Shown here in pieces: positions 44,625 through 47,418 of a stretch of 64,000 bases of DNA (position 1 is its first letter; the number at the start of each line of letters is the position of its first letter). The translations under genes were made by a program, and so were the position numbers. This DNA comes from Haladaptatus sp. ZSTT2. GTDB lineage: Archaea; Halobacteriota; Halobacteria; Halobacteriales; Halococcaceae. The notes under the pieces are model-generated. The model made no database searches. It saw only the letters and a program-made list of their open reading frames with translations, and had not been told where the DNA came from. The stretch spans positions 2,046,001 to 2,110,000 of the forward strand of contig NZ_JBAMHQ010000001.1 in assembly GCF_037081775.1 (NCBI RefSeq), written 5' to 3'.

Positions 44625-44969
44625 TTAGGCCGCGTCGATGAACTCGAGTATCTGTTCTGCGCCCTGAAACCCCTCTGCGAGACGGCCCACCACTTCGCCG
44701 TCTTTGAACAGCAGGAGGGTTGGCACGCTTCTCACGTTGTACTGTTCGACCAGTTGGATGTCGGTGATTGGATTGATGAGCGCGACGACGGCGTCGCCCG
44801 CGCGGTGGACGGTCCCGAGCACCGGCTCGATGCTCTGACAGAGCGTACAGCCCTTGGTGTAGAAATCAACGAGCACGAGGTCGTGTGCGGCGACGAGCGC
44901 GTCGAGGTCTGCTGCGCGTTCGAGGTGGACGGGACGGGGCGGTTTCTCGGTGGGAACGTCTGTCGTCAC
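44625..44969 (-). CDS. thioredoxin
   Basis: 114 residues with active-site CTLC (about 41-44, in VDFYTKGCTLCQSIEP) and the cis-proline loop RSVPTLLLFKDGE near 80-92. The usual CGPC is replaced by CTLC, which should raise or lower its redox potential. Acts as a cytoplasmic disulfide reductant. A TTTTTT run just past the stop (44614-44624, minus strand sense) is a likely terminator. It follows the HxlR gene by 58 bases. Confidence 0.9.
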   Translation of the reverse strand: MTTDVPTEKPPRPVHLERAADLDALVAAHDLVLVDFYTKGCTLCQSIEPVLGTVHRAGDAVVALINPITDIQLVEQYNVRSVPTLLLFKDGEVVGRLAEGFQGAEQILEFIDAA

Positions 44970-45027
44970 TGGCAGGGTTTCGGGCTGGCGCTATTTAGGG
45001 AATCTGGTGGGTCGAACTGTGGCACCA

Positions 45028-45387
45028 TCAGTCGTCGGCCGGTTCGATAATCGAGGTGTCGAGCCACTCGTTTGCCCAGCGTTCGATTTCCTCGAACACG
45101 GGAAACAGCGACGCGCCCTTCTCGGTCAGGCTGTAGTAGGTCGCCACAGGCGCGTCCTCTTCGAGTCGGCGGTTTACGAAGCCGGTCTCTTGGAGGTCAT
45201 CTAAGACACGAGAGAGGGTGCGCGAACTCGCATCGGTCGAGCGTTTGAGTTCGTTGAACCGCTTTTCGCCCTCTTGGAGGTCGTGGAGCACGATGAGTCG
45301 CCACTGGGAGCCAATCTGTTGGAGGGAGTCGATGACGACACACGCGTCCTCCGAATACTTCTCTTCGTCTGCGTCGTGACTTTGCAT
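45028..45387 (-). CDS. HxlR family winged-helix regulator
   Basis: 119 residues from ATG 45387 (MQSHDADEEKYSEDACVV); an ATG ten codons upstream at 45417 is the alternative. Central winged helix: IGSQWRLIVLHDLQEGEKRF, then RSTDASSRTLSRVLDDLQETGFV as recognition helix and wing. HxlR proteins often sense oxidants or aldehydes through a cysteine; here C at DACVVIDS near residue 15 could do so, and the thioredoxin gene directly follows on the same strand. Confidence 0.88.
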   Translation of the reverse strand: MQSHDADEEKYSEDACVVIDSLQQIGSQWRLIVLHDLQEGEKRFNELKRSTDASSRTLSRVLDDLQETGFVNRRLEEDAPVATYYSLTEKGASLFPVFEEIERWANEWLDTSIIEPADD

Positions 45388-45488
45388 GTCGGTCTCTACG
45401 CTGTTCTGTGCACCCAACCACTATAGAGATTCGGATTAGAACCAGGTTGCAAAATGAAACTGAATGCGTTCGGCTGGTTGCGCCGCGA

Positions 45489-46457
45489 TTAGGCTGTCGC
45501 GGCGTCCTGGTCTATTTTCAGAAGTTCGCGGTAGCGGTTGCGGATGGTGACTTCGCTGATGTCTGCGACCTCGCTCACTTCTGCCTGCGTAATCTCGGCG
45601 TTCGTGAGCAGGCCAGCGGCGTAAATCGACGCCGCGGCGAGGCCGACCGGCGACTTGCCGCTCAGAATCCCTTCATGCTTTGCGGTTTCGAGCAGTTGGC
45701 GGGCGCGCCGTTCGGTTTCGTCGCTCACGTCTAAGCCGGAGGCAAAGCGGCCGACGTAGCTGACGGGGTCTGGCGGCGCAATCTGCAAGTCGAGTTCGCG
45801 GACGATGTAGCGGTAGGCGCGCTGGAACTCCATCTCATCGACGCGCGTGACGGCGGCCACTTCGTCTACGGTTCGTGGATTGCCCGCCTGTCGGGCGGCG
45901 GCGTGGAGCGACCCGGTCGCCATGCCTTCGATGGACCGACCGGGGAGCAGGTCTTCTTCGAGGGCGCGTCGATAGATGACCGACGCCGTCTCGCGGATGG
46001 CTTTCGGGAGGCCAAGCGCACTCGCCATGCGGTCGATTTCACCGAGGGCTTGCCGGAGGTTGCGGTCGCGGGCGTTGCGGGTTTTCGTCCGGCGGTCCCA
46101 CATCCGCAGGCGGCCGAGCTGCTTTCGCTTTCGCGCGCTCAGCGTGTTCCCGCGGGCGTCACGGTCTTGCCAATCGATGGTGGTCGAAAGCCCCTTGTCG
46201 TGCATCATCTTCGTCATCGGCGCACCGACGCGGGACTTCTGGTTGCGCTCTGCCGAGTCGAACGCGCGCCACTCCGGGCCGCGGTCGAGTTCCGCTTCCT
46301 CGACGACGAGACCACACGACTCACAGTGGCGTTCGCCGTGTTCGTGGTCAGTCTTGAGCAGACTTCCACACTCGGGACAGGTCACCTCTGTTTCCGTACT
46401 GCGAGGTGGCGTGCGCTTCGTCTGTTCTGACTGATTGTATGAGGTTACTTGTTGCAC
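45489..46457 (-). CDS. tfb: transcription initiation factor TFB
   Basis: 322 residues from GTG 46457. N-terminal zinc ribbon with CPECG near 27 and CESCG near 45, B-reader/linker region GAPMTKMMHDKGLSTTIDW (about 78-96), then two cyclin-like core repeats (about 125-210 and 220-310). It recruits RNA polymerase to TATA-bound TBP. Haloarchaea have many TFBs that rewire gene sets. A TTGGT(N4)ACCAA repeat lies 76 bases upstream, also found before the divergent regulator. Confidence 0.95.
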   Translation of the reverse strand: MQQVTSYNQSEQTKRTPPRSTETEVTCPECGSLLKTDHEHGERHCESCGLVVEEAELDRGPEWRAFDSAERNQKSRVGAPMTKMMHDKGLSTTIDWQDRDARGNTLSARKRKQLGRLRMWDRRTKTRNARDRNLRQALGEIDRMASALGLPKAIRETASVIYRRALEEDLLPGRSIEGMATGSLHAAARQAGNPRTVDEVAAVTRVDEMEFQRAYRYIVRELDLQIAPPDPVSYVGRFASGLDVSDETERRARQLLETAKHEGILSGKSPVGLAAASIYAAGLLTNAEITQAEVSEVADISEVTIRNRYRELLKIDQDAATA

Positions 46458-46532
46458 GGGAATGAGGGATTGGAGGTTGGTGGGCGTGTCAATACATGCA
46501 TTGCTCAGGACTGTTTCGGGTTATATCCTCGC

Positions 46533-46546
46533 TTGGTATACACCAA
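46533..46546. promoter_or_regulatory. inverted repeat TTGGT-N4-ACCAA, copy 1 (tfb side)
   Basis: TTGGTATACACCAA, 76 bases upstream of the tfb start. Same half-sites, spacing and flanking A as copy 2 before the HTH-10 gene. The shared element between two divergent regulators suggests one factor, plausibly the HTH-10 protein itself, binds both. Confidence 0.6.
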
Positions 46547-46675
46547 ATAACATCGATGACACCTGCTTACCGTGACGTGACTACCATTTCAAATTCTGCG
46601 TTTCTACGGCAACTACAGCCGAAATTCGCGTGATATGCGAACGTACGATGATTCCGGCACCGATACGCTCTTAGG

Positions 46676-46689
46676 TTGGTGTGTACCAA
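46676..46689. promoter_or_regulatory. inverted repeat TTGGT-N4-ACCAA, copy 2 (HTH-10 side)
   Basis: TTGGTGTGTACCAA ends nine bases before ATG 46699, so it would overlap the start of transcription of a leaderless or short-leader mRNA: a good place for autorepression. Confidence 0.6.
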
Positions 46690-46698
46690 AGATAGTCA

Positions 46699-47418
46699 AT
46701 GAGAGAGTTCGTCTTCAGCCTCACCTACGAACCGGGGGCCGACCCCGTCGCTGACGTGTTTATGGAGTATCCGGCCGCCCTCGCAAAATCCCTCGACTGT
46801 GCGGTTGCCGGAAACAACATGTGGCGACTCGACCGCATCACCGGGCCGGAAGCGGCGGTGTCGAAACTCACCGACTTGCTCACCGACGCCTCTCGGTGCA
46901 ACGAGTGTCTGAACGACCCGACGTGTGATTCCTACCGCGAACACGAACTGCTCGCCGCCGACACGACGAGCGCCACCATCTACACCTACCGCCAAGGGAT
47001 AGAAGAGTGTCGCACCCTGCCGACGCTCGCCCACGAACACCTCGGCCCGGGCCTGCTCTACGAAACCCAACGCCGCGGCGACTCCTACGAGTGGCGCATC
47101 CTCATGCGCTCTGACGGGAGTGTCGGCGAACTGTACGACGCCGTGCAAGCCGAACTCTCTGATGGCGTCAACGTGAACCTCTCACACCTCTCGAATCCGA
47201 CTCACTGGACTGATGAGGCCATCACCGCCTGCGAACTCCCGTTCGAACAGCGCCAAGTGCTCGAACTCGCCGTCGCAAACGGCTACTACGAAACTCCTCG
47301 CAAGACGACACTCTCAGAACTCGCAGACGAAATCGACGTGCCCCAATCGACCCTGCAGTATCGCCTCCAGCGCGCCGAATCGTGGCTGGCAACCGGCTTC
47401 GTAAACGAGTGTCTCTAA
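46699..47418 (+). CDS. bacterio-opsin-activator type HTH-10 regulator
   Basis: 239 residues. The C-terminal HTH-10 domain (about 170-235) is clear: LPFEQRQVLELAVANGYYETPRKTTLSELADEIDVPQSTLQYRLQRAE in outline. The N-terminal half carries cysteines in DASRCNECLNDPTCDSY (about 63-79) with four-Cys spacing that could bind zinc, an Fe-S cluster or sense oxidants. Divergent from tfb, with a shared repeat before both. Confidence 0.88.
   Translation: MREFVFSLTYEPGADPVADVFMEYPAALAKSLDCAVAGNNMWRLDRITGPEAAVSKLTDLLTDASRCNECLNDPTCDSYREHELLAADTTSATIYTYRQGIEECRTLPTLAHEHLGPGLLYETQRRGDSYEWRILMRSDGSVGELYDAVQAELSDGVNVNLSHLSNPTHWTDEAITACELPFEQRQVLELAVANGYYETPRKTTLSELADEIDVPQSTLQYRLQRAESWLATGFVNECL

Follow-up and report, generated by a model that had tools for sequence, protein, structure and literature searches.

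The locus lies in a 64-kb stretch of DNA (hereinafter the window) and consists of two divergent genes separated by a 241-bp intergenic region. The minus-strand gene (45489 to 46457), the proposed target, is tfb and encodes a transcription factor B with a zinc ribbon (PF08271, 54.3 bits) and TFIIB repeats (PF00382, 135 bits in two stretches); the plus-strand gene (46699 to 47418) encodes a 239-aa regulator combining an HVO_2928_N domain (PF24281) with an HTH_10 domain (PF04967). These Pfam domains agree with the gene identities given in an earlier, sequence-only reading of the window, which had also pointed to two copies of the inverted repeat TTGGT-N4-ACCAA between the genes. Read directly from the sequence, the repeats are located exactly where that reading placed them: putative operator A, upstream of tfb, at 46533 to 46546 (TTGGTATACACCAA), and putative operator B at 46676 to 46689 (TTGGTGTGTACCAA), that is, positions -23 to -10 relative to the HTH-10 gene start, with nine bases (46690 to 46698) between the repeat and the ATG at 46699; neither is assigned a strand. 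On the other side of tfb, adjoining it, are a thioredoxin gene and a gene for an HxlR regulator (44625 to 45417 together). The HxlR gene (45028 to 45417) lies 71 bp past the end of tfb, and its product shows weak similarity to the redox regulators RrpA and RrpB. The genome encodes 7 full TFBs including the one in the window, plus one with a single repeat.

The two exact copies of the repeat in the window compare with 0.03 expected, and none of 100 shuffles yielded two. A scan of the entire genome (3,230,757 bases; 3.23 Mb) revealed only these two exact sites, both of them in the intergenic region shared by tfb and the HTH-10 gene. Given three exact copies of the reversed control pattern in the same genome, a single exact copy would be unremarkable, whereas a pair within one 241-bp intergenic region is remarkable. 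With one mismatch allowed, the genome contains 48 matches versus 63 for the reversed control; a wider regulon defined by such relaxed sites was rejected, there being no excess over the control among the matches listed. Judged by these scans, the set of sites of the HTH-10 protein itself looks tiny, namely two.

In the HTH-10 regulator, HVO_2928_N spans residues 3-170 and the full profile (223.2 bits against a cut-off of 27), and HTH_10 spans residues 184-231 (56.5 bits against a curated cut-off of 23.1), with the recognition helix PQSTLQYRLQRAE; a Pfam scan at E 0.1 detected neither a GAF nor a PAS domain. The protein is the only match to PF24281 in the genome, and its sequence gives 15 matches in this genome. 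The locus can be described as one candidate regulator of the HVO_2928_N family with two sites and two flanking genes, in a genome that also carries other HTH_10 proteins. The structure model (mean pLDDT 87, from 36 sequences) consists of two beta-alpha-beta-beta-alpha-beta units followed by the HTH. In this model, Cys67, Cys70 and Cys76 are located in a long loop leading to the final strand of the first unit; Cys104 is in the second unit, between its first strand and first helix; the four cysteines could form a single ligand site. All of 16 tfb-linked proteins have C67 and C104, and at least 90% have C70 and C76; in a wider set of 36 proteins, C67 alone stays at or above 90%. The suggestion that this regulator might be a cysteine sensor appears reasonable in the light of this conservation. 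Relatives with solved structures found by sequence were weak matches, the best of them to the HTH part, and a Foldseek search with the model gave mostly unconvincing matches. VIA-align retrieved Ta1207 (Z 11.1, 146 aligned residues, 3.6 A, residues 1-168), numerous folds of the ferredoxin-like type near Z 7-8 and, for the HTH part, sigma region 4 structures near Z 8; these structural matches yield no function.

Both repeats are present in all three genomes of the genus that were compared (the window genome, G001 and G002), with the starts of operators A and B 143-145 bp apart, and variants of the repeat occur at homologous loci in other genera; G002 carries a third exact copy elsewhere in its genome. 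The sequence-only reading had named a lack of the repeat at homologous loci of relatives as grounds for refuting its proposal, and the proposal withstood this check. Genus-level footprinting was discarded as support: 13 of 14 and 10 of 14 positions are conserved in the two sites versus 56% on average, which is hardly above the flanks. Other relatives came from an alignment-based search, which yielded 49 named loci; a single-protein search of the genome contigs gave no relative. The divergent arrangement of tfb and the HTH-10 gene is shared by two sister genera within the family (L006-L010), where TTGGC-N4-GCCAA occupies the position of operator A at three of the five loci (L007-L009), the sites at L006 and L010 being degenerate. 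Beside the tfb-linked gene, L010 contains another HTH-10 match that is incomplete and interrupted by a stop (G005:C101:6881-7396). TCGGT or TTGGT...ACCGA occurs near positions -150 and -22 in Halocatena and YIM A00010, and related sites were identified in Halorubellus, Haladaptatus pallidirubidus, Halomarina, Halogranum, Haloarcula, Haloferax and the QS and QH MAGs. One of the two divergent Haladaptatus loci listed by name has a variant repeat, and the Halomarina locus with a PQST helix has an asymmetric site (TTGGCTATAACCAA) that falls outside the palindrome rule given below. In Haloarcula, the two genes are in tandem and a palindrome is usually found ahead of each; in Haloferax (L221, L223, L226), palindromes are located before the HTH-10 gene, after it and before tfb. 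At one of these Haloferax loci, a gene for a SUI1/YciH-like translation initiation factor (L221:3841-4173) is inserted between the HTH-10 gene and tfb, with a palindrome just ahead of it (L221:3823).

We counted palindromes around 41 distinct HTH-10 proteins with tfb within 1.5 kb, a set that includes many close relatives and does not amount to 41 independent cases. Of the 41 loci, 38 have a palindrome in the 420 bp preceding the tfb match, 29 have one within 90 bp upstream of the HTH-10 gene (the other 12 having none there) and 27 have both; chance expectations per locus, from shuffles of the sequence upstream of the HTH gene, are 0.082 for 420 bp and 0.016 for 90 bp. At divergent loci, the 420 bp scanned ahead of tfb may extend as far as the HTH-side site, which is what the tfb-side match at L006 is, and the match at L010 is doubtful, so that 36 (tfb side, without L006 and L010) and 26 (both sides, without L006) are the safer counts. 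Three loci (L070, L074 and L210) lack a tfb-side palindrome within the scanned 420 bp. The recurrence of palindromes at tfb-linked loci holds across the differing gene orders. The HTH-10/tfb pair is also found on records titled plasmid (L191, Halomarina halobia; L196, Haladaptatus pallidirubidus) and, given these records, the module may move. The HTH-linked TFBs are not supported as a single clade: in a quick tree with many weak branches, 5 of the 6 other TFBs of the window genome fall among them.

The two repeats differ in their placement relative to the predicted promoters, the TATA elements of which were judged by eye. On the tfb strand, operator A ends 7 bp ahead of the tfb TATA core (TATAAC on the minus strand, 46520 to 46525), whereas operator B immediately follows the weak TATA-like box predicted for the HTH-10 gene on the plus strand (46668 to 46675, CTCTTAGG), the ACCGATACGCTCTT of which is common to all three species of the genus. 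Across 12 loci, 11 of them tfb-linked, in which TATA-like boxes were likewise judged by eye, the arrangement of palindrome, 7 bp and TATA-like box on the tfb strand was observed at 8 of the 11 tfb-linked loci (the window, G002, L188, L190-L193 and L195); the spacing is 9 bp at L189, and L196 and L199 deviate from the arrangement. For the HTH-10 gene, read on its own strand, 11 of the 12 loci have a TATA-like box with a palindrome, or a degenerate version of one, directly behind it at about -22 to -25, the exception being L199. Leaderless transcripts account for 72% of the protein-coding transcripts of Haloferax volcanii, according to excerpts of PMC4983044, so that transcription of the HTH-10 gene likely starts near its ATG and operator B would occupy the initiation region. 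The rule quoted in the available part of PMC4287449 places activators upstream of the preinitiation complex and repressors downstream of it. By this rule, the placement of operator A is activator-like and that of operator B is repressor-like, which suggests that tfb is activated and the regulator is self-limited.

Alternatively, the HTH-10 protein could act on both sites with the same sign, repressing or activating both genes, for example by looping across the 143 bp. Both sites are exact matches at a nearly constant distance within the genus, as such a reading would have it, and in Haloarcula the HTH-side operator lies at -56 to -59, upstream of the TATA box, a position that fits activation of both genes. 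At the divergent loci, however, the sites are placed differently relative to the two TATA-like boxes, the spacing varies in other genera and 143 bp does not correspond to an integral number of turns of the DNA helix (10.5 bp each); we consider the same sign at both genes unlikely in the window. The Haloarcula positions, together with an HTH-side operator at -50 in Haloferax, imply that autorepression is not general, and in Haloarcula both genes may be activated.

The HVO_2928_N/HTH_10 family is present in 149 of the 194 sampled genomes of the order, and many of its members are linked to genes other than tfb. A P1B ATPase match was detected by tblastn within 600 bp of 66 of the 163 family genes taken from whole-genome loci; at L028, L034-L037 and about 60 other loci, an HVO_2928_N/HTH_10 paralogue is followed by a heavy-metal P1B ATPase, often with a palindrome from a few to some tens of bases past the regulator stop codon. 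The four ATPases that were checked pass the heavy-metal and cadmium-subfamily cut-offs, and the copper-subfamily cut-off narrowly; against transporter models, their scores are higher for zinc/cadmium/mercury/lead types than for copper but fall short of the cut-off of the exact zinc exporter models. At L036, the regulator frame is disrupted before the HTH part (there is an undetermined base inside, perhaps an assembly fault), and an exact palindrome still precedes the ATPase gene. Given that the paralogues adjoin heavy-metal ATPases and that the cysteines are conserved, a soft metal or a thiol is a plausible signal for the tfb branch. For Halobacterium and Haloferax mediterranei, the parts available of papers on metal regulation reported no HTH-10 regulator.

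The 163 genes and the 49 named loci comprise 196 distinct proteins, or 193 after removal of three without a recognizable helix (L036, L106 and L219). A palindrome of the form [TC][TC]GG-X-N4-X'-CC[AG][AG], no more than 300 bp upstream or 200 bp downstream, accompanies 92 of the 193 family genes compared to 2.95 expected from Markov shuffles; the other 101 have no palindrome matching this rule in the scanned range. These include all 20 genes with the helix PRSTVQ, and members with the PRSTVQYRL helix (L053-L059, L061-L063 and others) must rely on another kind of site or on one lying farther away. When helices are classified by the residue before ST and the residue two after T, the half-site base X follows the class closely: X is C for R/Q and R/S (32 of 33), A for R/T, R/N and R/A (35 of 35) and for N/Q (7 of 7), and T for Q/Q, G/S, G/A and L/Q (12 of 12, including the two L/Q sites, at -224 and -225, which are weak evidence); T/Q is mixed (G, A and T once each), and V/R and K/R have T once each. 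Palindromes far from gene ends or poorly matching, namely the L/Q pair and those at L085, L200 and L024, may be due to chance, and R/Q is over-represented because the named set was gathered with the pattern [RQ]STLQYRL. At the same tfb locus, PQST in the window genus and Halocatena goes with T, and PRST or ARST in the sister genera with C. Arginine generally prefers guanine, and glutamine adenine. A tree built from the N-terminal 172 residues requires 10 changes of X and 12 of the helix class. Well-supported branches provide two independent pairs, which puts significance out of reach; these two nearly always agree (1.9-2.0 of 2 over random pairings). All branches together provide 2 to 7 pairs. 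When tabulated, the association is strong; when tested with correction for phylogeny, it is weak. The assumption of the sequence-only reading that the HTH-10 protein acts on the repeats is backed by this pattern, which does not reach significance once phylogeny is corrected for.

These family data bear on the possibility that the palindromes are operators of another regulator, such as the HxlR protein, with the HTH-10 gene merely a target. The proximity of the HxlR gene to tfb and its redox-regulator similarity would be compatible with this scenario; nevertheless, the palindromes recur beside HTH-10 paralogues at metal ATPases in loci without a tfb match and the half-site base follows the HTH-10 recognition helix, which makes another regulator improbable. 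It is hardly credible that the repeats are chance occurrences or RNA hairpins: single exact copies do occur in these genomes, as the reversed control and the third copy in G002 illustrate, but not two in one intergenic region with recurrence across families and with palindromes at 92 of 193 family genes against 3 expected, and operator B, abutting a TATA-like box, is probably at least partly outside the transcript.

Both repeats are very probably operators of the adjacent HTH-10 protein, and the proposal that tfb is wired to a dedicated HTH-10 regulator is supported by the two unique sites, their recurrence at related loci and the helix/half-site pattern. We propose, with a probability of about 0.7, that this sensor-regulator operates two operators, activating tfb and limiting its own synthesis, such that a cysteine-sensed signal sets the level of one TFB. 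Under this scheme, the protein would bind as a dimer, as the two-fold symmetry of the repeats suggests; on operator A, a short distance ahead of the tfb TATA box, the dimer would activate tfb, and on operator B, beside its own TATA-like box, it would restrain its own production. The signal, most likely soft metal or thiol stress, would be perceived by the N-terminal tandem ferredoxin-like domain through the cysteine cluster and would change the activity of the protein. The outcome would be a short-range two-gene switch that sets the level of a single alternative TFB. What the sequence itself shows are the sites, their uniqueness and recurrence, the helix/half-site pattern and the placement relative to TATA-like boxes; binding, dimerization, the sign at each promoter, the nature of the signal and any influence of this TFB on other genes are inferred.

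A TFB gene under the control of a stress regulator is already known, namely tfbB under RosR in Halobacterium salinarum. According to the accessible sections of PMC4287449, RosR resembles the proposed scheme in that it acts directly on a TFB gene as well as on its own, recognizes a palindrome and, by way of the TFB, reaches further. It differs in being bound at 252 loci, compared with the two exact sites of the HTH-10 regulator. Furthermore, the HTH-10 regulator, unlike RosR, is encoded beside tfb, and the pair recurs in other genera. RosR is not known to be an HTH-10 protein. Bat resembles the HTH-10 regulator in that it ends in an HTH motif, with a UAS 5' to bop (excerpts of PMC1447603). Unlike the HTH-10 regulator, which has HVO_2928_N instead, Bat contains GAF and PAS domains. 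The HTH of Bat is assigned to HTH_10. NarO and DmsR are described, in the available portion of PMC11218638, as short regulators grouped with the bacterio-opsin activators and lacking PAS and GAF. The HTH-10 regulator matches this description, which alone is too weak for membership; NarO and DmsR control denitrification and DMSO respiration, not a TFB. TFB-RF1 of Pyrococcus furiosus is, as far as the available excerpt goes, also an archaeal activator that works through TFB, but it recruits TFB to a target promoter and does not control a tfb gene. TFB paralogues are a recognized layer of haloarchaeal control (PMC4230888, in part). HVO_2928 appears once in PMC8303175, among listed antisense transcripts, and the HTH-10 passages available from PMC4983044 and PMC9976938 do not mention TFB; among the matches listed from the open-access literature, we found no report of the HTH-10/tfb pairing or of its operator.

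More generally, the HVO_2928_N/HTH_10 proteins could be sensors of thiols or metals that act locally and whose DNA recognition follows a legible code: in the helix P-x-S-T-L-y-Y, the residues preceding ST and following L would set X of TTGG-X-N4-X'-CCAA. An alternative TFB would be under the command of one branch of the family, in a portable, self-limiting module, and heavy-metal exporters under that of sister branches; we regard this generalization as having even odds.

To our knowledge, the switch has been established for few haloarchaeal TFBs. Haloarchaea have many TFBs (7 in this genome), and a dedicated regulator with two operators that recurs together with a TFB in several families represents a simple, testable case. 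The reach of the switch over many promoters, as envisaged in the sequence-only reading, hinges on what the TFB in the window transcribes. From the helix/half-site pattern, operators could be predicted throughout a family that over three quarters of the sampled genomes contain; among the matches listed from the open-access literature, none of these operators was found described. The HTH-10/tfb module, if true, would resemble the pairing of a sensor gene with an alternative sigma factor.
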